This document shows positions 3 through 47,532 of a DNA stretch of 64,000 bases, piece by piece; position 1 is the first letter of the stretch; each line of letters starts with the position of its first letter. Both the position numbers and the translations under genes were made by a program. The notes beneath the pieces were generated by a model, which saw nothing but the letters and a program-made list of their open reading frames with translations, searched no databases and was not told the origin of the DNA. Origin of the DNA: Natrinema caseinilyticum (GTDB lineage: Archaea > Halobacteriota > Halobacteria > Halobacteriales > Natrialbaceae); contig NZ_CP100445.1 of assembly GCF_024227435.1 (NCBI RefSeq), forward strand, positions 3,531,369 through 3,595,368. The letters are read 5' to 3'.

Positions 3-3000
3 GCGCGGGCGCTCCGCCTGATCGCGGCGGAGCGACCCGACGCAGTAGCGCCGTCCGTCGAACGCGTGTCTGCGGGGCTCGCGGACGAGCGTGAGCGGGT
101 CCGTGTCGACGTCGCGCGGGCGCTCGCTGCCGTCGCGGCCGAGCGTTCCGACGCCGCCACCGCGATCGTCAACGACCTGGCCGCGAGCCTCGACGACGAG
201 GCCGACGTCCGTCGAGAGACGATCCGAGCGCTTCGCGATGTCGCGGATGCCGACCCCGATGCGGTCGTTCCGGCCGTGGACGCACTCGTCGAGCGAGTCG
301 ACGATCCACTCGAGGAGGTTCGGACGAACGCCGCCGCGACGCTCGCGACGCTTTCTGCGGATCGACCTGACGCAGTCGAACCCGCGGTCGATCCGCTCGC
401 CCGCCGGCTGGCTCGCGACGAGCCGGCAGTCCGGAGCCACGGGGTCGCGGCCATCGCTGCCGTCGCGGACGCGACCCCCGAAGCCGTCGAGCCCGTCGTC
501 GGGGATCTCGCCGTGGTCCTCGACGACGAGAACGATGCCGTTCGGCTCGAAGCAGCCCGTTCGATCGCGGCTGTCTCGGATACCGGTCCCGATCCGATCC
601 GTCCGATCGTGTCGGAACTCGCTCGGAGAATCGACGATCCGCACGAACCGGTTCGCTATCGAGCGGCCGACGCGCTGAGCGCCATCGCACTCGCCGAACC
701 GGTCGACGGGGTCGACGTCCAGGCGCTCGTCGACCGACTCGAGTCGGACGACGAGTGGAGCAGCGGGCACGCCGCCCGCAAACTGGCGGAAATCGCCGAG
801 GCGCGGACGGCCGACGGCCATCCGGCAGTTCGATCGTTGTGTCGGAGACTCGAGTCCGACACCGACGCGATTCGGCGGGCGGCCGCCCGTGATCTCGTTC
901 CGATCGCAGCCGAGACGCAGCGGACGGCCCGCGAGACCGTTGCCCCGCTCGGCGACCGGCTCGCGGACGACGATGCGAGCGTCAGAAACAACGCGGCCCT
1001 CGCGCTCGCTCGAGTCGCCGAAACGTATCCCGACGTCGTGGAACCGGCGCTACCGGGGCTCTTCGGCGCACTCGACGATGCGGATCGAAGCGTGCGTACC
1101 ACGGTTCGCGAGACGCTTTCGGCGGTCGCACCCGAATCGCAGGCGGACTGCCGGCCGACGGTCGCGCTGGCCGTCGAAAAGACCGCTGCCGACGAGCCGG
1201 CCGTACGGGCGGGCGCCTGCGAGGCACTCGGGATCCTCGAACTCGAGACCGGCGCCGAGACCGAGGCCGTCATCGACGCCCTGGCGACGGTGCTCGTCGA
1301 ACCGCCGGTGGTGGTTCGAAGCGCGGCCCTCGAAACGCTCGTCGCGTTGCTCGGGGCCGACGAGGAAACCGAGCCGACGCCCGTCGAGACGATCGACGGA
1401 ATCCTGTCGACCGACGACGAGCGCGCAACGGCGGTTGCGACGGCGCTCGCCGATGTCGCACGAATGGACCCGGAACTGATCGCCGACGCGGCCACGCCGC
1501 TCGTCGAGCGATTACGAGCGGGAGACACCGGCCAGCGCCGAGCGATCGAACGCGCGCTCGCGACGGCCGCCGCGGAGACGAATCTGCGATCGGTCACGGC
1601 ACTCCTGTGCGAGGACCTCGAGTCCGGTGCGGACGAGACGGCCGGGACGGGCGGCGCGGTCGGTCGGCGCTCGATCGCGCTCGAGATCGCTCGACTCGCG
1701 GCGGCGGTCCCCGACGACGCGGCGTCCGCCCGGGACCGGCTGATCGCCTTGCTGGCGGACGAGGACCAGTCGGTCCGCGGGGGTGCGGCGCTCGCACTCG
1801 GGACGCTCGTGATCTCCGGTCGGAGCGACGGTGCTGCACTGGAGGACGCCCTCGAAGACGTCGACGAACAGGTGTCCGATGCGGCGTCACTCGTCGGCGG
1901 CGGCCGGGCGCCGAGGCGCACCGACGAGATAGACGCCCGCCGTTCCGCTTTCGGACGTCGGATCGACGGCGACCCGCGAGCCGGCGGACTGGCCGTTCTC
2001 GCGCTTTCGGTCCTCGCCGACGAGTCCGAACGACTGCGTCCGTCCACCGTCTCGACTATCGCGACCGGCCTGACCGCCGACAGCCCGGCCGTTCGGGTCA
2101 CGACCGGACGAACGCTCCTGACGATGGCGACCGACGATCCCCACGGGCTCGCCGAGGCGACCGACGAACTGCGCTCGGCGCTGTCGGATCCGGATGCGGA
2201 CGTTCGAGCGACCGCCGGCCGCGCGCTCGCGGAAATCACAGAGGTCACCGGGGAACTCGAGGGTGACGCCGACGAGATCGTACCGGCGCTCCGCGCTCGA
2301 CTGGCCGATCCCGACGGGAGAGTTCGAGAAGCCGCGGTTCGGACGCTCGCGGCTATCGAGGCCGTCGACTCGGTGTCCGCGGTTCGCCCGCTCGTCGACG
2401 ACCCCGTCCCCCCCGTTTCGGGCGCGGCGGCGACCGCGAAGGAACGACTCGAACACGTCCGCGACCGCGAGGGGTCCGAGGACGCCGACTGGCCGATGGT
2501 TGGCGCGGGACCCGCGGCGACCGGTTCGGTCGGGACCGGCGAGACGCTCGGCAAGAGCCCGACGGCGCTGTGGAGCGTCGAGACGGACGGCACGGTCGTC
2601 GCTCCGCCGGCGCTGGTCGACGATACCGTCTTCGTTACGAGCGACGACGGCCGCGTCACCGCACTGGCGCTCGAGGACGGACGCGAGCGCTGGCAGTTCG
2701 AATCCGAGGCGCCGATCGGGACGGCGCCGGCCGTCGTCGACGATACCGTCTACGTCGCCGGTGAAACCGCGGTGTACGCGCTCGAGGCGGGATCGGGTGA
2801 GCGAACCTGGCGGTACGAAACTGATACGCTCGTTCGGTCGTCACCGGTCGTCGCCGGCGGGAACGTGTACGTGGGTGGCACGACGCTCCACACGATCGAC
2901 GCGGAAACCGGCCAGCCGGTCTGGACGGCGGGTCTGGCCGGCCCGCTCGTCGGGATGGCCGTCGACGACGGCGTCGTCTACACCGTCTGTGAGGGGCGGG

Positions 3001-3548
3001 CGTCTGCACTCGCGTCCGAGGGTGGCCGCCGACGGTGGATGACGGCCCTCGACCGCAACGGGGAGGCGCTGACGAGGCCATCGGTCGCGAACGGGTGCGT
3101 CTACGTCGGCTGTGGCGGCTCGCTGCATGCGCTATCGGCCGCCGACGGTTCCCAACGCTTCCGATTCGATACCGGCGGCCCCCTCACTGCGTCGCTCGCA
3201 GTCGCAGACGGGCAGCTCCACGCCGCCAGCACGGACGGGAGCCTCTACGCGATCGAAACGAATACCGGCGCCGAGCGATGGCGCGTCGATGTTGGTGATC
3301 CGACGACCGGTCCGGTCGTCGTCGACGGGACCGTCTCGATCGCCACCGCTGACGGGATCGTCCACGGGCTGTCGGTCGCCGACGGTACCCGGCGATGGAA
3401 CCTCGAGTCGATCGACACGGGGGATGCCCCGTCGCTCGTCGGCGCGAACGGACGGCTCTGTCTCGTCGGCCGGGATGGCATCGCCGTAATCGGAACCGAA
3501 CAGCCGTCCTGGCGGGACTCGATCTCCGGTCTGTTCACTCGACTGTGA
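3..3548 (+). CDS. HEAT-repeat / PQQ-like beta-propeller protein (5' end outside window)
   Basis: The reading frame is open from base 3 and already encodes HEAT-type repeats before the first GTG at 66, so the gene starts upstream of the window. The first roughly 800 visible residues are tandem alpha-helical repeats of about 35-40 residues with recurring AVRxxAAxALAxIA-like helices. From about base 2487 a DWPM motif, typical of the entry to PQQ-type propellers, begins a repeat series of about eight blades with recurring VYVG, ALDAxTG and W-rich strands running to the C-terminus. HEAT arrays and PQQ propellers are both protein-binding scaffolds, so an assembly or sensory role is inferred. No catalytic motif is seen. 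It converges on the thioredoxin-like gene. Export cannot be judged because the N-terminus is missing. Confidence 0.9.
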   Translation, partial: ARALRLIAAERPDAVAPSVERVSAGLADERERVRVDVARALAAVAAERSDAATAIVNDLAASLDDEADVRRETIRALRDVADADPDAVVPAVDALVERVDDPLEEVRTNAAATLATLSADRPDAVEPAVDPLARRLARDEPAVRSHGVAAIAAVADATPEAVEPVVGDLAVVLDDENDAVRLEAARSIAAVSDTGPDPIRPIVSELARRIDDPHEPVRYRAADALSAIALAEPVDGVDVQALVDRLESDDEWSSGHAARKLAEIAEARTADGHPAVRSLCRRLESDTDAIRRAAARDLVPIAAETQRTARETVAPLGDRLADDDASVRNNAALALARVAETYPDVVEPALPGLFGALDDADRSVRTTVRETLSAVAPESQADCRPTVALAVEKTAADEPAVRAGACEALGILELETGAETEAVIDALATVLVEPPVVVRSAALETLVALLGADEETEPTPVETIDGILSTDDERATAVATALADVARMDPELIADAATPLVERLRAGDTGQRRAIERALATAAAETNLRSVTALLCEDLESGADETAGTGGAVGRRSIALEIARLAAAVPDDAASARDRLIALLADEDQSVRGGAALALGTLVISGRSDGAALEDALEDVDEQVSDAASLVGGGRAPRRTDEIDARRSAFGRRIDGDPRAGGLAVLALSVLADESERLRPSTVSTIATGLTADSPAVRVTTGRTLLTMATDDPHGLAEATDELRSALSDPDADVRATAGRALAEITEVTGELEGDADEIVPALRARLADPDGRVREAAVRTLAAIEAVDSVSAVRPLVDDPVPPVSGAAATAKERLEHVRDREGSEDADWPMVGAGPAATGSVGTGETLGKSPTALWSVETDGTVVAPPALVDDTVFVTSDDGRVTALALEDGRERWQFESEAPIGTAPAVVDDTVYVAGETAVYALEAGSGERTWRYETDTLVRSSPVVAGGNVYVGGTTLHTIDAETGQPVWTAGLAGPLVGMAVDDGVVYTVCEGRASALASEGGRRRWMTALDRNGEALTRPSVANGCVYVGCGGSLHALSAADGSQRFRFDTGGPLTASLAVADGQLHAASTDGSLYAIETNTGAERWRVDVGDPTTGPVVVDGTVSIATADGIVHGLSVADGTRRWNLESIDTGDAPSLVGANGRLCLVGRDGIAVIGTEQPSWRDSISGLFTRL

Positions 3549-5125: not shown

Positions 5126-8100
5126 TTACTCCGAGACCACTGCCTCGACGCGATCGATCTCGTCCTCGGTCAACCCGTATCGTTCGTAGACGAGTGCGTC
5201 GATTCGGCGGTCCGTCTCTTCGATTTGCTCCGTGAGGGCCGCCGCTCGATCCGTCGTCTCGAGGTAGCGCTCCAGACCGTCTCGAACGTCCTCGAGCGCG
5301 GGAAGGGTAAGCGCCCGAAGTCGGTCGACGAGGGAAATGGTTTTCGTGGCCGTCTTGCGGACGTTCGCGAAGCCACCGGCCTCGTCGACTGCGACGGGGA
5401 CGAAGGCCTCGATCAGGTCCGCCTCGCACCGCTCGAGATCGGTGAGACGGAACGCGGGTATCGGGTCGGTCTCGGTGTAGCCCCACTGGTCGGTCTCACA
5501 CTCCGACTCGCCCCCGGGAGCCACGGTCTCGGTCGCGTCCGCGGGTTTGTACCGGGCGGTCGCTTCGATCACGACCGTCCCGGCCGACCGGCGAGTCACG
5601 GTCGCGCGTCCGAGACGAAGCTGCGTCAGCTCCGTTGCCGTCCGGGAAAGCGGCGATTCGTCCGGCCCCGCCGGGCGTATCGACCCGATGCTCCAGAGGG
5701 GATCGCCCCATCGGTACTCCCCCAGATGCGCTTCGAGGTCGAGCGTCAGCGTCCCTCGCGTTCGGGTCGCCTCGATGCGCTGGGTCACGAGAGCCGCGAA
5801 TTCGGGGCCCGTCGGAACGGCGATCGGATAGGACTCGAACGTCGACTGGTTGATTTGGGGGAAGACGGACCGATATGCGGCGTGGGTCATCTCGTGATAG
5901 TACTCCAGCAGGGACGAATTGAGGACGCCGAGGATGTGCCGAAGGTCCGTTTCGGAATCGTCCGCGGCGATGTTGTACACCGACTTGATCGTCACCCGGG
6001 ATTCGGTATCGAGCGCACCCGTCGGCGCTGCTGCGGTCTGTCGGAAAACGAGCTTCGGGCTTCGATACTGTTCGCGGTCCTTGTCGATCTCCGTCGGCGA
6101 GATGTACCGGGTTTCCGCGGCGTCGAATCCGTACGGTTCGATGGCCGAGCCGGGAACGATCGCTTCCGACTCGTTCTGTCCGGGTGCGTCGGACAGCACG
6201 TCGGCCCGTTTGCTGATCTCCTCCCCTCGCGAGATCGAAACGCGTTCTCCGAGTTTCGGATGGGACGCCAGTTTCTGCAGGATCGATCGCGTGGGTCGGT
6301 TCAGGTGTAACAGGAACCGATGCTCGTCCTGTTCCCGAAAGACCGACTGCGGAATCTCGTCGTACTCGACCGATCCGACGGCCCTGGGACCATCGGTCGA
6401 CGCACACTTGACCGCACCCTCGCCAGCTCCGGTTACGAGGACCGCAACCCCGTTCTCGACGGTGTCGAACGCCGTCCCCAGGTGAAGGACGAACGCGATG
6501 TTCGTGCGGTCGAGCAGATACCGGCGAACGTGTGCGTTCTGTTCTCGAGTCAGTATCGCATCGGGAACGACGATTCCGATTCGACCGTCTGCGGCGAGAC
6601 GGACGAACTGTTCGGTGAAAGCGACGTACAGATCGAACTGCTGTCTCGTCGACTCGTACTCGGTTTCGAGATACGCACGGAGCGACCGGTCCATGGTCGC
6701 GCTGATGGCGCCCCGGCCCGCCGTCGCGACCCACGGCGGATTGCCGATCACCGCGTCGAACCCGGCGTGGTCTCGTCGTCGCCCGTTCTCGTCGAGAACG
6801 ACGTCGGGAAACTCGAGGTCCCAGTGAAAGAACCCCTCCGCCTCGCTCGCCGACTGCGCCCGCCTGAACCAGTCCGTCGTCCGCAAATCGGCCCACGCAT
6901 CCTCGTCCTCGATCGCTCGGACCACCCGCTCGCACGCGTCGTCGGGGACCTCGCGGTCGAACCGTGCCGCGGTGGCAACGTTCGCCAGTGCGACCAGTCG
7001 CCGGAAGCGCGGTTCGGTCCGGTTCCACTCGTCGACGTCCGCCGTCGACGCCAGATCCGTGAGCGTCTCGGTCGAGAGCCGCTCGGTTATCGTCGAACCG
7101 ACCAGCGAATTGCCCACCGCGAGATGGTGGTCGAGAGCGGGGGCCGCCCCGTCGGCCGCGGCCGTCTCGAGCCACAGCGTCAGCTTCGCCACCTCGACGG
7201 CCATTTCGTTCCTGTCGACGCCGTAGATGCACTGCGAAACGATCGCACGGCGAACTCGCCCTTCGTCGACTGTCGTCGGTCCGTTCGTCCTCCGTGCCTC
7301 GGCCATCACCTGGGCCGTGAGATACGCCGTGGCCCGCGTGAGGAAGTGGCCGCTCCCCATCGCGGGATCCAGAATCGAGACGTCGGTCACCGCGCGGACG
7401 AACGCGTCCACGTATTCGTCCGTTCCCGGCTCGAGGCCGCCCGACGAGAGGTCGTCTCTGATCTCGTCGAGTAACGGCCCGACGGTCTTCTCGACGACGT
7501 CGCTCACGACAGCGTCCGGCGTGTAGTAGGTTCCCGACGTCTTTCGGTCGCCGTCGTCGGTGACGACGTACAAGCCACCGCTGTCTACGGTCTCGATCGT
7601 CTCGCTCGCCGTCACCTCGGTTGCCGGTTTCCAGACCGTCTCACCGTCAGCGGGAACGCCGGCGTACTCGGTCGGCGCGATCCGAAACTGCTGCTCGAGC
7701 AACGCTTCGTAGCCGTTTCCGAGGTGACGCGTCTCGAGATCTGCGTATTCGATCGGAACGTACCGTCCATCGTCCGTTTCGGTCGTCGAGAGCCGGTAGA
7801 GCGCTTCCGCGAGGTATCGATCGCCGACCGCGTTTGCGGCCAGCAACTCGTGTGCCGATCGGTCGAACAGCCCGCCGTCGGTCCCGGGTAGACCGAGGTG
7901 CTCGTTTCGGTCGTCGATCCACCGAAACAGCGTCTCGAGTCGCCCCCACAACGCCGTCGAACGCGCGTCGTAGCGTTCGTCGAACCCGTCGCCGCTCGTG
8001 CCGATCTCGTCGTACACCTCGAGTCGGATCGCCTCGAGACCGAGCGGCGCGTCGTCCATCCGTGTGCCGTCGGGATCTGCGGGTCGGACGAGCCCTCGGG

Positions 8101-9133
8101 ACTCCGCGTAGCAAACGATCAGCAACCGGTAGAGCAGGACGAGTGACTGGGTTTTCAGTTCCTCGAGTCGCTCGTCGTCGCTCGGATCGACGTCGAGGTC
8201 GTTCGTCTCGACGAAGCCGCGACCGAGGAGCCTCAGTACAGCGAACCCGGTCTCTTCGAGGTCCGCGCCGAGTTCGCGGACGACCGCTTCGCTCTCCGCC
8301 CGGACCGAATCGAGACCCGACCTGCCCGCGGACTCGCGGAACGCGGCCGCACGGAAGAGAGCGTAAAAATATTTGAAGTCCTCGCTGTCGTCGCGCTCGA
8401 GCAGGTTCGGCAGATCGATCTCGTAGCAGGCCTGCGCCTCGTCCGTGTCGATCCCGTCGCTCCGGGTCTCCCTGGCGTCGGTTCCCCCGCCGTGAGTCTC
8501 GTCAGTGTCGACCCCGTCGTCCCAGATTTCGGAGGGGTCTGTCCCGTCGGTTCGAGTCTCGTCGTCTGCCCGATCGGGTGGCGTGTCGACCTCGCTTGCA
8601 CGGTACAACCGCCACGTTCGCCCGTTCGTGAGGATTCCCCATCCGATCGTCTCCGGCGTGCGCTCGAGAACGCGGGCGATCCGGTCGGACGCGGTTCGGT
8701 CGATCGGTCGGTCGCCGACCGGCGTCGTGGCGTCGTCGTCTCGGCGACAGATCGCGACGATTCCGAGCGCGTGCTCGGACGGATCGGTCCGGTCGTCGGC
8801 GTCCGAGAGCGGTTTCTGACTCTCCCGTCCGGCCGGGGTATCAGCCAACAGGAGGACGTCGACGGCGCCGGTATCGTCGGGTGCCGTCATCCAGTGAGTC
8901 GACCCGAACCCGAGGACGTCGAGTACCTCCCGGACGCGGTCTCCGGTCGCGAACGGGTCGTCGGAGACGGGATCAGATTCGCCGTCGAACAGCCCTCGCA
9001 GCCGCTCCATCGCATCGGCCGCCGCCTCGTCGCAGTCCCACGCCGGTCGGTTCTGGATCCGCTCGTCGAGATAGTACCTCGCAAAGAGCGTCGAACGAGC
9101 GTACGGACGATCCGACGGCGCTGCCTCCCTCAT
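5126..9133 (-). CDS. Large type IIG-like DNA adenine methyltransferase, nuclease motif apparently degraded
   Basis: 1335 residues from ATG 9133; a GTG at 9172 is possible, but it overlaps a TATA-like TTTCTTA. The N-terminal region resembles type IIG enzymes, including LTNGRTWRLY at 168-177, but the position that normally reads ExK in the PD-(D/E)xK nuclease shows VAICRR (126-131). An imperfect decapeptide repeat follows at 193-234. The methyltransferase core has SGTYYTP (533-539), DPAMGSGHFL (589-598), GVDRNEMAVE (638-647) and the N6-adenine motif NPPW (798-801). The C-terminal 400 residues fit a target-recognition domain. No separate nuclease, helicase or BREX gene lies nearby, so it may act as a solitary DNA modification enzyme. 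Eco57I-type is the closest family description. Confidence 0.85.
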   Translation of the reverse strand: MREAAPSDRPYARSTLFARYYLDERIQNRPAWDCDEAAADAMERLRGLFDGESDPVSDDPFATGDRVREVLDVLGFGSTHWMTAPDDTGAVDVLLLADTPAGRESQKPLSDADDRTDPSEHALGIVAICRRDDDATTPVGDRPIDRTASDRIARVLERTPETIGWGILTNGRTWRLYRASEVDTPPDRADDETRTDGTDPSEIWDDGVDTDETHGGGTDARETRSDGIDTDEAQACYEIDLPNLLERDDSEDFKYFYALFRAAAFRESAGRSGLDSVRAESEAVVRELGADLEETGFAVLRLLGRGFVETNDLDVDPSDDERLEELKTQSLVLLYRLLIVCYAESRGLVRPADPDGTRMDDAPLGLEAIRLEVYDEIGTSGDGFDERYDARSTALWGRLETLFRWIDDRNEHLGLPGTDGGLFDRSAHELLAANAVGDRYLAEALYRLSTTETDDGRYVPIEYADLETRHLGNGYEALLEQQFRIAPTEYAGVPADGETVWKPATEVTASETIETVDSGGLYVVTDDGDRKTSGTYYTPDAVVSDVVEKTVGPLLDEIRDDLSSGGLEPGTDEYVDAFVRAVTDVSILDPAMGSGHFLTRATAYLTAQVMAEARRTNGPTTVDEGRVRRAIVSQCIYGVDRNEMAVEVAKLTLWLETAAADGAAPALDHHLAVGNSLVGSTITERLSTETLTDLASTADVDEWNRTEPRFRRLVALANVATAARFDREVPDDACERVVRAIEDEDAWADLRTTDWFRRAQSASEAEGFFHWDLEFPDVVLDENGRRRDHAGFDAVIGNPPWVATAGRGAISATMDRSLRAYLETEYESTRQQFDLYVAFTEQFVRLAADGRIGIVVPDAILTREQNAHVRRYLLDRTNIAFVLHLGTAFDTVENGVAVLVTGAGEGAVKCASTDGPRAVGSVEYDEIPQSVFREQDEHRFLLHLNRPTRSILQKLASHPKLGERVSISRGEEISKRADVLSDAPGQNESEAIVPGSAIEPYGFDAAETRYISPTEIDKDREQYRSPKLVFRQTAAAPTGALDTESRVTIKSVYNIAADDSETDLRHILGVLNSSLLEYYHEMTHAAYRSVFPQINQSTFESYPIAVPTGPEFAALVTQRIEATRTRGTLTLDLEAHLGEYRWGDPLWSIGSIRPAGPDESPLSRTATELTQLRLGRATVTRRSAGTVVIEATARYKPADATETVAPGGESECETDQWGYTETDPIPAFRLTDLERCEADLIEAFVPVAVDEAGGFANVRKTATKTISLVDRLRALTLPALEDVRDGLERYLETTDRAAALTEQIEETDRRIDALVYERYGLTEDEIDRVEAVVSE
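8432..8557. repeat. Degenerate 30-bp tandem repeat (decapeptide repeat in coding sequence)
   Basis: Four adjacent 10-codon units inside the methyltransferase gene encode variants of E-T-x-x-D-G-x-D-x-x, such as ETRTDGTDPS and ETRSDGIDTD. The bases repeat with a 30-bp period (gtctc...tcg...cccgtcg on the + strand), with substitutions between units. It lies in the acidic linker between the N-terminal domain and the helical part. Confidence 0.75.
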
Positions 9134-9252
9134 AGATACACTGTGTCTCGAATCGTCGGCGTAAGAAACCACTGGTCGATACGACCCCGTCCGGCGATTC
9201 CACCGAAGGCAATACGCTTTTTACGGCTGCACGCTCACTCGAGAGCGAGACC

Positions 9253-20525: not shown

Positions 20526-21944
20526 TCAGAACGCGAGCGCGTCGACGAGGATCGCGACCAGCACCGCACCGAGGAAGGCGTTCGAGGCGTGAAACGACCG
20601 GAACGCGGCCGTTTCGGTCTGTTCGAAGTGGAGTCGCACGGCGGCCCAGAGGAAGATTCCGCCGAAGAGAACGACCGTTCCGGCGTACAGGGCACCGAGT
20701 TCGGTGATCCACGCCAGTGCGATCGTGCTCACGAGCGTCGCGGCGATGTAGTAGAGGATGTGTTTCCGGGTGACGGTCTCGCCGCGGACGACCGGCATCA
20801 TGGGGAAGCCGCCGCGTGCGTAATCCTCGCCGTAGGCCAGCGCGAGATTGTAGAAGTGCGCCGGCGTCCACAGGAAGATGACACCCGCGAGCGCGAGTCC
20901 CGGCCACCCGATCTCGTTCGTGACCGCGGCCCAGCCGATGAGCGCGGGGAGCGCGCCCGCTGCGCCGCCGATGACCGTGTTCTGAACCGTGTTCGGCTTG
21001 AGGAGGAGCGTGTAGACGACGCTATAGAACAGGATCGCCGAAAGCCCCAGCGCCGCGGCCAGGCGGTTGATCGTCAGAAACGCGCCAAGCGACGCCGCGG
21101 TCAGTACGACCCCGAACGCGAGCGCGTTCCGAACCGGAATCAGGTCGACCGCCAGCGGTCGATCGGCGGTGCGGGACATCTTCTGGTCGACGTCGCGCTC
21201 GAGGACGTGATTGAACGTTCCGCTCGCGCCGATCGCGAGGACGCCGCCGCCGAGCGTCGCGACGATCGTGGAACTCTCGAGACCGGGACCGGCGGCAAGT
21301 GCCATTCCCGCGGCGGCGACGAGACAGAGCAGCCACATCAGCCGCGGTTTCATCATCTGGAAGTAGGCGAAAACGGTCAGCCTGGCACGGTGCAGTCGGC
21401 TCGACGGGAGCGACCGTTCGGCCGCGGTCGGGACGTCGGCTTCGAGCGGTTCCGGCGAATCGATGGCGTCGTCCTCGCTGCCGGTCGCGAGCTCGAGGTC
21501 CCAGGCGAGGGCGAGGACGATCGCCGTGAAGATGACGAGTCCGAGCGCGAGGTGTAAACCGGGGAGGATCGCGGCGGGGCCGATCGTGGCGGTGACGGCT
21601 CCGACACCGATCTGGACCACGTAGAGGCCTGCGGCGACGGCGAGGGCCGTCCGAACGCGACTCGACGCGTCGCCGAGAAGTCCGGCGATCGCCGCCCCGG
21701 CGACGAGGAATCCGACCACGACGGCCGTGAGCCGGTGGGTCCACGCGATCGCGAGTTCGGTCTGGTTCAACGGGTCCACGGGTGTGTGACAGGTGGGCCA
21801 CGTCGAACACGAGGCGGCCGCGTTCGTCAGCGAAGTCGTCGCGCCGACGATCAACAGTAGATAGACGCCCAGCGCGGTCGCTGCGAGCAGTGCGGAGAAC
21901 CGCCGGCGGGTACCGATCGGGCGGGGAAAGGACTCAGTTGCCAC
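20526..21944 (-). CDS. ctaB: Haem O synthase with N-terminal CtaA-like domain (protohaem IX farnesyltransferase)
   Basis: 472 residues, about 170 longer than a plain CtaB. Residues 1-150 form four hydrophobic helices with HRLTAVVVG and HLALG histidines and resemble the CtaA/Cox15 haem A synthase half-module. Residues 195-472 form the UbiA prenyltransferase part, with NHVLERDVD (first Asp-rich motif) and YGEDYARGGFPMMP (second). CtaB transfers a farnesyl group to haem B; CtaA oxidises haem O to haem A for terminal oxidases. The fused arrangement is seen in haloarchaea and would let product pass directly between sites. Because only one four-helix CtaA half is present, full haem A synthase activity is uncertain. 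Confidence 0.92.
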   Translation of the reverse strand: MATESFPRPIGTRRRFSALLAATALGVYLLLIVGATTSLTNAAASCSTWPTCHTPVDPLNQTELAIAWTHRLTAVVVGFLVAGAAIAGLLGDASSRVRTALAVAAGLYVVQIGVGAVTATIGPAAILPGLHLALGLVIFTAIVLALAWDLELATGSEDDAIDSPEPLEADVPTAAERSLPSSRLHRARLTVFAYFQMMKPRLMWLLCLVAAAGMALAAGPGLESSTIVATLGGGVLAIGASGTFNHVLERDVDQKMSRTADRPLAVDLIPVRNALAFGVVLTAASLGAFLTINRLAAALGLSAILFYSVVYTLLLKPNTVQNTVIGGAAGALPALIGWAAVTNEIGWPGLALAGVIFLWTPAHFYNLALAYGEDYARGGFPMMPVVRGETVTRKHILYYIAATLVSTIALAWITELGALYAGTVVLFGGIFLWAAVRLHFEQTETAAFRSFHASNAFLGAVLVAILVDALAF

Positions 21945-40855: not shown

Positions 40856-42085
40856 ATGTCGGTTCGACGATCGGCCGGACGGTTCGCCGAGTACGACGCG
40901 CTCGTCTTGACGGCCGCGATCTGGTTTCTCGCGAAGTTTCTCCGGTACGCCTTTCCGCCGCTGTTCGATTCGTTTCAGTCGAGCTACGGCGTTTCGGATG
41001 CCGTCCTCGGAACCGCCTTCTCGGGACTCCTGCTCTGTTATGCGGTCATGCAATTTCCATCGGGCGTCCTCGCGGATCGGCTCGGGACGGTGACCGTCAT
41101 CGCGGCCGGTGCCGTCGTCGGAGCCGCCGCGTCGGTCGCGCTTTCGATCGATTCTCCGTTTATCGTCCTCGTCGGCGCGATGCTCGTTATCGGGACCGGG
41201 ACCGGCGCGCACAAGACGGCCGCCGTTCGCCTCCTCGCTCGAGCCTATCCCGAGCGGACGGGGCGGGCCCTCGGATTTCTGGACACGTTCGGGGCCTTCA
41301 GCGGCGTCGTCGCCCCCGCGGCCGTCGTCGGCGTCGCGTCGCTGGCCGTCGGGCCGGTCGCGAGTTGGCGGTTGCTCTTTCTGGTCTCGGGCCTGGTCGG
41401 ACTGGTTCTCGCGGTGACGTTCGTGGTTCGGGTTCCCCGACGGCTCCCGGACGAAACCACCGGAACGGAATCGAACTCGAGCGATCGCGGGACCGGGATC
41501 GCACGGTACGCCTCGCTCTTTCGTGACTGGCGATTCTCGGCGTTCGCTCTGTTGACGGTTCTGTTTTCGTTCATGTACAACGGGCTGGTCGCGTTTGCGC
41601 CGCGGTATCTCACGGTCGAGGCGGGTCTCACGCCGGCGACCGCGAGCGTCCTCTATAGCGGCCTCTTCCTCGCGAGTCTGGTCCAGTTGGTGACCGGCAA
41701 CTTGAGCGACCGGGTGGGACGGCTTCCGATTATCGTCGCGACGCTCGGACTGGCTTCGGTCGCACTGGTCGCGTTCGTGTCGGTCACCGAGACGGGGAAT
41801 TCGATCCTGCTCGGCGGGCTGTTCGTCGCCGTCGGTATCGGCTCGCACGGCTTTCGGCCCGTCAGAAGCGCCTATCTGATGTCCGCGATTCCGGACGATG
41901 TGGCCGCCGGCGGGCTCGGCGCCGTCAGAACGCTGTTGATGGGCGCCGGCGCAATCGCACCCGCGATCGTCGGTACTCTCTCCGAAACCGCGGGCTTCAG
42001 GGTCGCGTTCTGGCTCCTCGCGGCGACCGTCGTCTGTGCCACGGGACTCGGTTGCCTGCTCCTGGTTTTCGGACACCGGGCGTGA
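40856..42085 (+). CDS. Major facilitator superfamily transporter
   Basis: 409 residues with about twelve hydrophobic segments in two halves of six, the usual size. The loop after helix 2 reads GVLADRLGTVTV, a form of the MFS signature GxLaDRxGrr, and the corresponding loop of the second half reads GNLSDRVGRLPI. The protein includes PERTGRALGFLDTFGAFSGV in helix 5, often seen in nitrate/oxalate or sugar/drug families. No substrate-specific motif is evident. The gene is alone on its strand. Confidence 0.9.
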   Translation: MSVRRSAGRFAEYDALVLTAAIWFLAKFLRYAFPPLFDSFQSSYGVSDAVLGTAFSGLLLCYAVMQFPSGVLADRLGTVTVIAAGAVVGAAASVALSIDSPFIVLVGAMLVIGTGTGAHKTAAVRLLARAYPERTGRALGFLDTFGAFSGVVAPAAVVGVASLAVGPVASWRLLFLVSGLVGLVLAVTFVVRVPRRLPDETTGTESNSSDRGTGIARYASLFRDWRFSAFALLTVLFSFMYNGLVAFAPRYLTVEAGLTPATASVLYSGLFLASLVQLVTGNLSDRVGRLPIIVATLGLASVALVAFVSVTETGNSILLGGLFVAVGIGSHGFRPVRSAYLMSAIPDDVAAGGLGAVRTLLMGAGAIAPAIVGTLSETAGFRVAFWLLAATVVCATGLGCLLLVFGHRA

Positions 42086-42680: not shown

Positions 42681-45600
42681 TCAGCGTGCGATGAGCACTG
42701 CGACGCCGATCAAAACGAGGCCGACGACTGCTGCGCCGGCCCCGACCGTTTGGCCGCCGGTAAGCGCAACGACGCCGCCAGCGACGATACCCGCCCCACC
42801 ACCGCCGGCGACGACTGCGGACGGGAGCGGCGGCGACGCCATCGCCTCGGCCCGAACGGCCTCGAGTTCCGTTCTGAATCCGTCGATCGCTTCGCTCTGG
42901 GTCTCCCACCGTTCGATTTCGTCGAGGCGCACGTTCGTCGACTCGACCCGTTGGTCGAGCCTCGAGAGGCCGTTCGCGGTCCTCGTCACCCGCTCGCCGA
43001 GTTCGTCCACGGTGGCATCGATCGTCCGAACTTCGTCGAGCGCCTGAACTGCCGACTCGTCCGGACCGTCGGCTTCGGCCAGACGGTCGTATTCCGCTCG
43101 AAGTGATTCGAAGCGGTCGTTCATCGTCGTAACGTCCACTTCGACGGCAGAAACGTCGTCCTCGACGGCCGAAACGTCGCTCTTGACGCCAGAGACATCG
43201 TCCTCGACGGCCACAACGGCATCTTCGAGAGACGCAATCGTGTCCTCGAGCGCCGTCGTGATGGCTTCCGATGCGACGTCGTCGGTTTCCTCGACGGCCG
43301 CCTCGACCGCCTCGAGGTCCGCCGTGATGTTGTCGACGTCGTCACACACCGATGCGACCGTCTCGTCGGTTTCTGCGAGGGATTCGCGTACCTCCTCCAG
43401 GTCGTCGTCCGCAACTGCTTCGCGGTCGAGTCGTTCGACGGTCGATTCGAGCGCCTCGAGGTCAGCCTCGACCGCGTCGGTCGCTGGGAAAACCCGTGTC
43501 TCGAGGTCGGTGACCGAGTCCTCAATTCGCTGCTCGAGACTCGCTTCGAGCGACTGAAGGTCCGAATCGAGGGCTTCCAGGTCCCCGCCGACCGTCTCGA
43601 GGGTGTCCGCGAGTTCGTCGACCCTCTCCGCGCTGGCCGTTCGCGACTCGGCGCCCGCCAGCTGTGCTTCGACGTCGTCGAGTTGCGTTGCAGTATCGCT
43701 CACCGTCTCCTGGACGTCTTCGACAGCAGTCTCGAGGTCGACCAGATCACCCGCTATGGCATCGATCCGGTCGGCACTCACGGCCTCCGTCTCGAGGTCC
43801 CCGATCGCGTCCCGAGCGGTTTCGAGACGCGTTTCGAGCGATTCGGTACGGTCGTCCAGTGCCTCGCGAACGGCGTCGACGTCGTCTGTGACGGCACCGA
43901 TTTCCTCGTCGACGGCGTCGATTTCCGCACCGATCGCGGCGGATTCCTCCTCGATCGTCGATTCGACCGCGTCGACCCGCTCGTCGGTCCGTTCCGTCTC
44001 CGTTTCGAGCCGTTCCGCGAGACCGTCGCTCCGGGTGGCGAGCTCCTCGAGCCGGCCGGTGAACCCGTCGATTCGCGTCCCGGTTCGATCGACGACTCCC
44101 TCGAGGTCTTCGAGTCCGTTCGTGAGCCGTGTGACGGTTTCGTCGACCGCTTCGAGCGCCGTTTCGGTCGCGGCGGCCGATTCGAGTTCCTCGACCGCCG
44201 CCGACAGCGTCGCGAGATCGTCGTCGAGCGCGTCCGTTCGGTCGGAGATAGCCGCAACGTCAGCGGCTAGCTCGTCGAGCCGGTCCGCCAGATCCCCTCG
44301 TCCCTCGGCTGCAACCGTCTCGACGTCCTCGAGTTCCGCGTCGATATCGTCGACGTCCGCTTCCAGTTCCGAGAGCGAGTCCGACAGCGCCGCGAGGTCG
44401 TCGTCGATCGTTTCGACGTCGTCGGTGCTCGCGTGGGTCTCGCTTTCGGCTTCGAGGTCGGCCAGTTCGTCCGCGAACGTCTCGAGTCTGTCGTCCAGTT
44501 GGTCGTCGATCGCCTCCGTCCGCTCTTCGACGTACTCGAGGTCCGAGAAGAGGCTCTCGAGGTCGTCGTGGACCGACTGGATCTCGTCGTCGCGGTTCGC
44601 GAGGCGGTCGAACAGTTGATCGATCGCATCGTCCGTTCGATCGGCGGCCATCGCGTCGGCCGACGGATCGGTGAACTCGAATTCGGTCCCCGTGCCCGTG
44701 CTCCCGTCCCCCGCCGCGCTCGAGTCCATCTCCGCCGTGTGGGTTTCGCCGACGGCCGCCGACCAGGAATCCGCCTCGGAGGCGTCGACGTCGTCCCTGG
44801 CGGCCGCGAGCGCGCCTCTGGCGGCGCTCTCGGCGGGGACGTCCGCGAGTCTGACCCCTCGTACCGAAAACGGGAGGTTGGCCGCATCGAACCGGCCACC
44901 GAAGAGAAACTCGATTCCTTCGACTGCTCCCTCGCCGGCGACCGTGAGCGGGACTGACAGCCCCTGCTGGACGTCTCTCTCGTCGGCCTCGCCTCGGATG
45001 GCCTCGATCAGGTCGGCTATCAGCGCATCGTAGGCCGCTGCGAGGCCGCTCTCGATACCGCCCACCGCGGCCTCGGGATCGAGCGTGAAGCCCTCGAGTA
45101 CCCCGGCGATCTGTGCGGCTTCGTGGCCGGTTTCGCTCGCCGTCCGCTCGATGATCCACTCGCGTCCCGTTCCGATCGAGACGGCTAGCGCCGGCACGCC
45201 GTAGTACGCCAGCGTGGCGCTCGTCGTCTGGGCCTCGAGACAGACGCCGAGACCGGTGTAATTGTCGGCGACGAACTGATCGTAAATGACGGCGAAGCCC
45301 TTGCTAATCGGCGTCGCGTCCAGCCCGCGATTTGCCACGACGGACTCGATCACCTCGCGGCACGCGCTGGTCGACTCCGACCCGGGCGTCGTATAACAGA
45401 GTCGTCCGTCGGTCGACTCACCCAGTACCTCGTCGACGAGAATCTTCAGTGCGGCCGTGGCGGGGGCGTCCGTCGCCGTCTCGAGACGGCCGTTCGCAAA
45501 CAGCAACTGGGGGTCCTCGCCGACTGCATCGGCGGCGGCTCGAGCGACCGTCCCGACGGCGTACGTCGTTCCGTTCGCTCGAACGGTGGCGTCGTCCTCG

Positions 45601-45731
45601 GAGAGCCCACCCTCCTCGAGGGCATCGTCGGCCGCGTGAACGATCGGTGGGACCGACTGGATCGTTCGACCGTCGGCCGTTTCGGTGGCGGCCCGGACCG
45701 ATCCCGGTCCGATGTCGAGACCGTAGTTCAT
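42681..45731 (-). CDS. Actin-fold N-terminal domain, giant coiled coil and C-terminal membrane segments
   Basis: 1016 residues from ATG 45731. The first 310 residues have the actin/Hsp70-type fold: phosphate-1 strand YGLDIGPGSVRAA (3-15), a degraded phosphate-2 motif VCLEAQTTSATLAYYG (163-178; Glu in place of the usual Asp and no GG), and an adenosine-type motif LTVAGEGAVEGIEFLFGG (262-279). About 370-960 is an almost unbroken coiled coil of repeated (D/E)(L/V)E, DDL and ETxD heptads. The last 50 residues have two hydrophobic stretches rich in Gly/Ala/Val, ending VGLVLIGVAVLIAR, typical of a membrane anchor. A cytoskeletal or membrane-tethering role is inferred. It is divergent from pckA. I cannot name a characterised homologue. 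Confidence 0.85.
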   Translation of the reverse strand: MNYGLDIGPGSVRAATETADGRTIQSVPPIVHAADDALEEGGLSEDDATVRANGTTYAVGTVARAAADAVGEDPQLLFANGRLETATDAPATAALKILVDEVLGESTDGRLCYTTPGSESTSACREVIESVVANRGLDATPISKGFAVIYDQFVADNYTGLGVCLEAQTTSATLAYYGVPALAVSIGTGREWIIERTASETGHEAAQIAGVLEGFTLDPEAAVGGIESGLAAAYDALIADLIEAIRGEADERDVQQGLSVPLTVAGEGAVEGIEFLFGGRFDAANLPFSVRGVRLADVPAESAARGALAAARDDVDASEADSWSAAVGETHTAEMDSSAAGDGSTGTGTEFEFTDPSADAMAADRTDDAIDQLFDRLANRDDEIQSVHDDLESLFSDLEYVEERTEAIDDQLDDRLETFADELADLEAESETHASTDDVETIDDDLAALSDSLSELEADVDDIDAELEDVETVAAEGRGDLADRLDELAADVAAISDRTDALDDDLATLSAAVEELESAAATETALEAVDETVTRLTNGLEDLEGVVDRTGTRIDGFTGRLEELATRSDGLAERLETETERTDERVDAVESTIEEESAAIGAEIDAVDEEIGAVTDDVDAVREALDDRTESLETRLETARDAIGDLETEAVSADRIDAIAGDLVDLETAVEDVQETVSDTATQLDDVEAQLAGAESRTASAERVDELADTLETVGGDLEALDSDLQSLEASLEQRIEDSVTDLETRVFPATDAVEADLEALESTVERLDREAVADDDLEEVRESLAETDETVASVCDDVDNITADLEAVEAAVEETDDVASEAITTALEDTIASLEDAVVAVEDDVSGVKSDVSAVEDDVSAVEVDVTTMNDRFESLRAEYDRLAEADGPDESAVQALDEVRTIDATVDELGERVTRTANGLSRLDQRVESTNVRLDEIERWETQSEAIDGFRTELEAVRAEAMASPPLPSAVVAGGGGAGIVAGGVVALTGGQTVGAGAAVVGLVLIGVAVLIAR

Positions 45732-46020: not shown

Positions 46021-47532
46021 ATGTCTGAAACCGGGACGGAGACCCGTCCGCTGGTCCGACAGCTTCCCGATCCATCGGCAGCGACGAACGTTCGCTACAA
46101 TCCGTCGCTCGAGGAACTGCGCGAACTCGCCGCTCCCGACGAGACGACGACCGAGTTCGGGTCGGCGTCGTACGTCAGCGAGTTCCGCTCTCGGAGCGCC
46201 GACCGGACGAAAAACGCCGTCGACGACGACTTTACTGCTCGCGATCACGCCCTGGTCGAGGAGGCGATCGACCGCACCGCCAGCACCGAGTTGCTCTGCA
46301 TCGACCGACTCATGGGCCGACACCCGGATGCAACGTTCTGTTGCCGGCTGTTCGTTCCGGTAGAGTACGCACGTATCGCGTACGCGTGGGCGGGCCTCTT
46401 CGAACCGGCCGACGGGCAGGACCCCGATCTCTACACCGTCCAGTTGCCCGACTTCGACGAGACCGCGATTCGAGTCCTCCCCGATACCGGCTTCACCGCC
46501 GTGCTGGGCAGCGACTACACCGGCGAGGCCAAGAAGTCGTTCCTCCGTCTGTTCATGTATCGAATCAAACAACAGGGCGGCCTCGGGCTCCACGCCGGCA
46601 GCAAACGCGTCCGCGTCCGGACCGACGAGGGTGACGTCCGGACCGTCGGCCAGGTGTTCATGGGGCTCTCCGCGACCGGTAAATCGACCCTGACTTCCCA
46701 CGGCTGCTGGCTCGAGGACTCGGAGGACGCCGCCATGCTTCAGGACGACGTCTGTGGGCTCCTCCCGGACGGCTCCGTCGCCGGAAGCGAGGGCGAGGGA
46801 CTGTACATCAAGACGATCGGCCTCGACGAGGACGAGCAGCCGGAACTCTACGAGGCCGCGACGGACGAGTCGGCGATCCTCGAGAACGTCGCCGTCGACG
46901 ACGACGGGACCGTCCACTTCGACGAGGACCGACACACCGCGAACTCCCGGGCGATCGTCCGGCGCGACGAACTCGAGAGCGCGGACGAGGAGATCGACCT
47001 CGGTCGAATCGATCAGGTCTTTTTCATCACGCGCAATCCGCTGATGCCGCCGGTCGCCAGACTCGACGAGGAGCAGGCCGCCGCCGCTTTCATGCTCGGC
47101 GAATCGATCGAGACCAGCGCGGGCGATCCGGAGCGAGCCGGCGAGTCGATCCGCGTCGTCGGCACGAACCCCTTCATCGTGGGTCCCGAAGGCGAGGAAG
47201 GGAACATCTTTCACGAACTCGTCGACATCCTCGACGTCGACTGTTACGTCATCAACACTGGCTATCTCGGCGAGGGTGCCGTCGACATCGGCGTGACCGA
47301 GTCAGTCGCCATCCTTACCGAGGCTGCCCGCGGGACCATCGAGTGGACCGACGACGACCGGATGGATCTGACGATCCCCGAGACCGTCCCCGGAATCGAT
47401 ATCGCGGACTACTACGTTCCGGATCACGTCGACGAGTACGACGAGGCGCTCGCGAAGTTGCGGGCCGAGCGCCGCGAGTACCTGGCCCGGTTTGACGATC
47501 TCCGCGAGGAGATCAGAACTGCCGTCTACTGA
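46021..47532 (+). CDS. pckA: Phosphoenolpyruvate carboxykinase (ATP)
   Basis: 503 residues. The P-loop is GLSATGKSTLT, the acidic metal site follows in LQDDVCGLLPDGS, and the oxaloacetate/Mn region includes GSDYTGEAKKSFLR. The enzyme converts oxaloacetate and ATP to PEP and CO2, the entry step of gluconeogenesis. The length and P-loop fit the ATP-dependent class rather than the GTP class. The gene is divergent from the actin-fold coiled-coil gene and has its own leaderless promoter. Confidence 0.95.
   Translation: MSETGTETRPLVRQLPDPSAATNVRYNPSLEELRELAAPDETTTEFGSASYVSEFRSRSADRTKNAVDDDFTARDHALVEEAIDRTASTELLCIDRLMGRHPDATFCCRLFVPVEYARIAYAWAGLFEPADGQDPDLYTVQLPDFDETAIRVLPDTGFTAVLGSDYTGEAKKSFLRLFMYRIKQQGGLGLHAGSKRVRVRTDEGDVRTVGQVFMGLSATGKSTLTSHGCWLEDSEDAAMLQDDVCGLLPDGSVAGSEGEGLYIKTIGLDEDEQPELYEAATDESAILENVAVDDDGTVHFDEDRHTANSRAIVRRDELESADEEIDLGRIDQVFFITRNPLMPPVARLDEEQAAAAFMLGESIETSAGDPERAGESIRVVGTNPFIVGPEGEEGNIFHELVDILDVDCYVINTGYLGEGAVDIGVTESVAILTEAARGTIEWTDDDRMDLTIPETVPGIDIADYYVPDHVDEYDEALAKLRAERREYLARFDDLREEIRTAVY

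Follow-up and report, generated by a model that had tools for sequence, protein, structure and literature searches.

The closest described relative of the protein analysed here is volactin (VolA, HVO_2015; Pfam family PF25216). In the searchable text of the papers cited here, H. volcanii volactin assembles into dynamic filaments and favours the disk shape of cells (PMC10869688, PMC7617734), the filaments contact the membrane by their tips only, volactin-binding factors are unknown (PMC10869688), and only one actin homologue has been identified in this organism (PMC7617734). Salactin of Halobacterium salinarum forms filaments that are anchored at one end, at the cell poles, and the searchable text describes no coil or tail fusion (PMC10746226, PMC10869688). 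It resembles our protein as a haloarchaeal actin-superfamily member, but it belongs to a separate family; the presumed salactins compared match the Volactin profile weakly, at ~20–33 bits. The fusion that we report here is likewise not described in the searchable part of the volactin and salactin literature, which mostly leaves out subscription papers and preprints, and Pfam or InterPro may list the architecture.

In bacteria, FtsA, PilM and GspL are actin-fold domains that are linked to the membrane and recruit another polymer or complex, FtsA attaching by a short amphipathic helix and GspL by one transmembrane segment. We regard them as work-alikes of the fused volactin, in which a membrane-linked actin fold would likewise be a recruiter; to our knowledge none of them has a long coil, and the fused head has no Pfam match to their families. 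MreC, EzrA and crescentin-type proteins are long coiled coils, some of them membrane-anchored, which organise a cytoskeletal polymer, and they share the long coiled coil with the fused volactin but, as far as we know, are without an actin-type head.

The fused volactin is encoded in the window, that is, the whole stretch of 64,000 nucleotides of Natrinema caseinilyticum DNA that was analysed (NZ_CP100445.1, 3,531,369 to 3,595,368). The gene, its main parts and its neighbours are:

42681..45731, minus strand: whole gene, 1016 aa, volactin-like head, coiled coil and C-terminal hydrophobic hairpin (open reading frame, homologues)
44799..45731, minus strand: head, residues 1–311, Pfam PF25216 Volactin domain of the actin superfamily (profile match)
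42837..44666, minus strand: coiled coil, residues ~356–965, heptad period 3.50, ~90 nm if one straight rod
44565..44636, minus strand: head/coil junction motif TDDAIDQLFDRLANRDDEIQSVHD, residues 366–389, in most fused homologues
42753..42845, minus strand: first uncharged hydrophobic stretch, Gly-rich, residues 963–993 (31 residues)
42687..42749, minus strand: second uncharged hydrophobic stretch, residues 995–1015 (21 residues), followed by a terminal Arg
46021..47532, plus strand: divergent upstream neighbour pckA (phosphoenolpyruvate carboxykinase), syntenic in many relatives
40856..42085, plus strand: convergent downstream neighbour, an MFS transporter, syntenic in many relatives

The open reading frame is intact and real at the coordinates first proposed for it, with its ATG at 45731 and a stop that ends at 42681; a chance frame is excluded by conservation across dozens of species and by six species pairs in which head, coil and tail each show a dN/dS of less than 0.65. 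The gene stands alone between pckA and the MFS transporter. Candidate operon partners were considered and rejected, since the syntenic pckA, MFS transporter and a HAD phosphatase were judged unrelated to the fused volactin, and we do not think that pckA or the transporter is part of the system. Elsewhere in the window, a 1160-aa protein at 66–3548 (plus strand) combines HEAT repeats with a PQQ-type beta-propeller, a 1348-aa Eco57I/MmeI-like restriction-modification methylase with a TaqI-type specificity domain lies at 5126–9172 (minus strand), and a single 472-aa frame at 20526–21944 (minus strand), with an N-terminal COX15/CtaA match and a C-terminal UbiA prenyltransferase match, is by these matches a haem-pathway fusion.

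An architecture of volactin-family head, long heptad coil and C-terminal hydrophobic hairpin is well supported by the sequence comparisons below. Tentatively, and somewhat short of even confidence, we hypothesize that the protein arose by duplication and divergence of a volactin and has turned into a membrane-anchored filament tether. Its head corresponds to a full-length family member: residues 1–311 cover the full Volactin profile (380 bits, E 1.5e-113, against a curated cut-off of 35 bits), the domain was recognised in all 43 fused heads scanned, and the head aligns with stand-alone volactins by hhalign with an E value of 9e-63 at ~35% identity. The initial annotation had called the head actin-like, and the motifs it quoted (GLDIGPG, VCLEAQTTSATLAYYG and VAGEGAVEG) are all present; it was correct about the type but missed the recognised family. 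Described volactin is stand-alone, ~340–380 aa long, near invariant and forms dynamic filaments, whereas the fused protein adds the giant coil and the hairpin. Stand-alone open frames are mostly 340–400 aa (~350 aa being typical), so a length of 1016 aa makes an ordinary volactin less likely and leaves Volactin domain membership unaffected. By hhalign, the volactin profile aligned with E. coli MreB over the whole domain with motif order kept, although with weak statistics, MreB being a single sequence. The actin-superfamily fold of the head is supported because of this family membership and motif order. The AlphaFold2 model of the head, built from three sequences, was poor (pLDDT 48.5, pTM 0.44). 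From this low-confidence model the sole Foldseek match below 1e-3 was the actin-like filament protein AlfA (1.2e-4), and the top structural alignments, which cover the N-terminal lobe only, include MreB3, MreB and crenactin (Z 8.0–8.7). These model-based matches to an actin-type fold are supporting, not decisive. A PDB sequence search with the head and the head profile gave nothing meaningful.

The coiled coil of about 600 residues proposed in the initial annotation is borne out. The hydrophobic residues of 375–955 recur with a period of exactly 3.50 residues, at which the spectral power is 14.7 against a mean of 3.8 and a maximum of 10.8 in shuffled sequences; this region has 0.3% Pro and 32% Asp plus Glu, and a single-sequence AlphaFold2 model of residues 341–1016 is a near-continuous helix over ~356–965 (~610 residues) with five short breaks. 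Coil length varies over a roughly sevenfold range from species to species, as expected of a spacer. Profile matches of the coil to ASRP, SMC, Rad50, baculovirus PEP and FlaC were set aside as generic: few of the Pfam ones pass their cut-offs, and the families of those that do are unrelated. The Rod_CreS, EzrA and SMC profiles scored 25.5, 24.6 and 73 bits against curated cut-offs of 100, 39.6 and 567, the NCBIfam SMC and Rad50 matches lie far below the NCBIfam cut-offs, and we take the crescentin, SMC, Rad50 and EzrA matches to be typical of any acidic coiled coil.

The last 54 residues contain both uncharged hydrophobic stretches, and an equivalent hairpin is found in 45/45 intact fused homologues vs 0/39 stand-alone volactins. 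A membrane anchor had been predicted here from the start, and the hydropathy and conservation of the hairpin agree with a segment that probably inserts in the membrane. The tail has a pLDDT near 30 in the model of 341–1016. With no N-terminal signal sequence and a basic terminus, the hairpin would be expected to sit in the cytoplasmic membrane so that both ends face the cytoplasm.

Coil accounts for ~60% of the protein, which would fit a membrane-rooted coiled-coil scaffold of an intermediate-filament or EzrA-like kind, whose head merely docks another partner such as chromosome, division or surface machinery. The head/coil junction motif, DDAIDQLFDRLANRDDEI in the window protein, is common to most fused homologues, which also fits such a scaffold. 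Against this, every fused head scanned still matches the Volactin domain and is under purifying selection, and the crescentin, SMC, Rad50 and EzrA profiles all fall below curated cut-offs; we consider a scaffold of this kind unlikely.

Fused and stand-alone volactins were compared in four segments of the nucleotide site:

45699..45722, minus strand: phosphate-1 motif GLDIGPGS, residues 4–11, Asp6 in 44/46 fused heads
45294..45314, minus strand: connect-1 segment TPISKGF, residues 140–146, position 144 Lys, Glu in stand-alone volactins
45210..45257, minus strand: phosphate-2 segment TGLGVCLEAQTTSATL, residues 159–174, EAQ in place of the GAG loop (166–168)
44916..44948, minus strand: adenosine-type motif LTVAGEGAVEG, residues 262–272, GG pair changed to GE (second Gly replaced)

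Compared with the stand-alone signature, the window protein keeps Asp6 and has lost Glu144, the phosphate-2 GAG loop and the adenosine GG pair, and the same trend holds over 46 homologues. Position 144 is Glu in 49/49 stand-alone volactins; in the fused heads tallied it is Lys, Arg, Thr or another non-acidic residue and never Glu. Glu144 pairs by hhalign with the Glu of the MreB EEPMAA motif, which we take to be MreB's proposed catalytic Glu, and by analogy it may be catalytic in volactin. Glu140 was considered for this role and rejected: it is absent from volactins outside haloarchaea, all of which keep the Glu144 that aligns with EEPMAA, making Glu144 the better candidate by sequence. Gly168 of the phosphate-2 loop is present in 49/49 stand-alone volactins vs 3/46 fused heads, and the second Gly of the adenosine pair (Gly267) is found in all 49 stand-alone volactins and is not among the residues listed in fused heads. 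The phosphate-2 Thr is kept in 44/46 fused heads. In stand-alone volactins themselves the position of the MreB phosphate-2 Asp is Ser, and thus rules based on MreB need care. The most degenerate nucleotide sites that we saw belong to two fused proteins (L091 and L096) in which the phosphate-1 Asp is gone too (GIALS and GLALS, residues 4–9). Since the phosphate-1 Asp is present in 44 of 46 fused heads, nucleotide could still be bound; with the MreB-aligned Glu, the phosphate-2 loop Gly and the adenosine GG lost in nearly all of them, the terms ATPase and nucleotide-gated, as first applied to this protein, are doubtful.

The window genome also encodes an ordinary stand-alone volactin (C1:166809-167771, 463 bits, open frame of 361 aa), which makes the window gene a paralogue. 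A search of other haloarchaea for the same fusion was successful: 87/125 Natrialbaceae genomes carry a fused copy, its open frame spanning 539–1564 aa (~70% of the genomes; the family label was assigned from named hosts, one of them Natronorubrum thiooxidans), one further genome has a fragment and 37/125 have no fused match. The fusion first noted in this one sequence is real, but its wide spread in Natrialbaceae had been missed, as had the ordinary volactin encoded elsewhere in the genome. The 44 other intact fused homologues have total lengths of 575 to 1295 aa. In every one of the 87 genomes a stand-alone volactin accompanies the fused copy; because stand-alone volactin is nearly universal in Natrialbaceae, this co-occurrence is weak evidence. 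Among 391 genomes of the class no close fused copy was found outside Natrialbaceae, and distant ones were found in two further haloarchaeal families, represented by four genomes: G136 (family f10) and G033, G141 and G243 (family f7). The fused form is absent from the class genomes without a volactin above the cut-off (117/292), those other families of the phylum in which stand-alone volactin occurs showed no long fusion, and the viral contigs searched contained no relative. Stand-alone haloarchaeal volactin is almost frozen, at 91.5–99.7% identity in 15 genomes of three families (e.g. L001). One genome (G106) has a broken extra volactin, seen as a pair of neighbouring partial matches that lie in different frames (C4:12424-13352), together with two intact copies on other contigs that have identical scores.

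In a tree that took in ten volactins from outside the class, one branch (support 100/98) sets off all 46 fused heads and another (98/91) sets off the stand-alone haloarchaeal volactins, in agreement with an earlier tree without an outgroup. A single origin of the fusion would suffice if the tree is rooted among the stand-alone proteins; exactly where the f7 and f10 copies belong is unsure because of their long branches. Across 12 Natrialbaceae genomes that carry the two copies, mean identity is 56.5% for fused heads and 96.3% for stand-alone volactins. This fast divergence could reflect a separate polymer, in which the heads assemble with one another, or serve as a nucleotide-dependent switch, and are tied to the membrane by the coils, independently of stand-alone volactin. 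The nearly constant phosphate-1 Asp and phosphate-2 Thr, and the selection that acts on the head, agree with such a polymer. However, the fused heads have lost the Glu that aligns with MreB's catalytic residue, the glycine loop of phosphate-2 and the adenosine GG, and they vary in sequence whereas the self-polymerising stand-alone volactins are almost invariant, so that we judge an autonomous polymer improbable. Fused head dN/dS is 0.20–0.28 in six close species pairs, indicating purifying selection, and on a fast-diverging head this looks like a functional pseudo-enzyme rather than decay. That the gene is a duplicate under drift, with a small role outside the cytoskeleton and a head diverging by relaxed constraint only, is very unlikely, for although divergence is fast and absence is scattered (37/125 Natrialbaceae genomes), those dN/dS values, an architecture kept by 45/45 intact homologues and the stable synteny of the fused gene in relatives all argue against it.

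The filament tether is our preferred reading. The hairpin would root the protein in the cytoplasmic membrane, the coil would dimerise into a rod of up to ~90 nm, and the head would be a weak or dead ATPase in the cytoplasm. Using its volactin subunit interface, this head would dock onto volactin filaments, cap them or nucleate them, and the variable-length coil spacer would fix how far the filament tips lie from the membrane. That the head docks, how the protein is oriented in the membrane and that ATP turnover is lost are all inferred from sequence. The tether idea agrees with the membrane-bound cytoskeletal element suggested in the initial annotation, although not with its nucleotide gating. 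We count against the tether that the genes around the fused volactin are metabolic and ribosomal, and fast head divergence may mean loss of the polymer interface. Furthermore, the tip anchoring of filaments in H. volcanii, where the searchable literature identifies one actin homologue, implies that the fused volactin is not a universal anchor and that other anchors act there.

A more specific version, in which a dedicated membrane-anchored pseudo-actin caps or nucleates archaeal actin filaments and a coiled-coil ruler sets their distance from the membrane, is possible though rather doubtful; if true, it would be an actin filament anchor built from actin itself. The fused volactin is a candidate for an actin that has become a pseudo-enzyme and an adaptor, like some eukaryotic actin-related proteins. 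It would also provide a direct genetic handle on the attachment, nucleation or capping of archaeal actin filaments.
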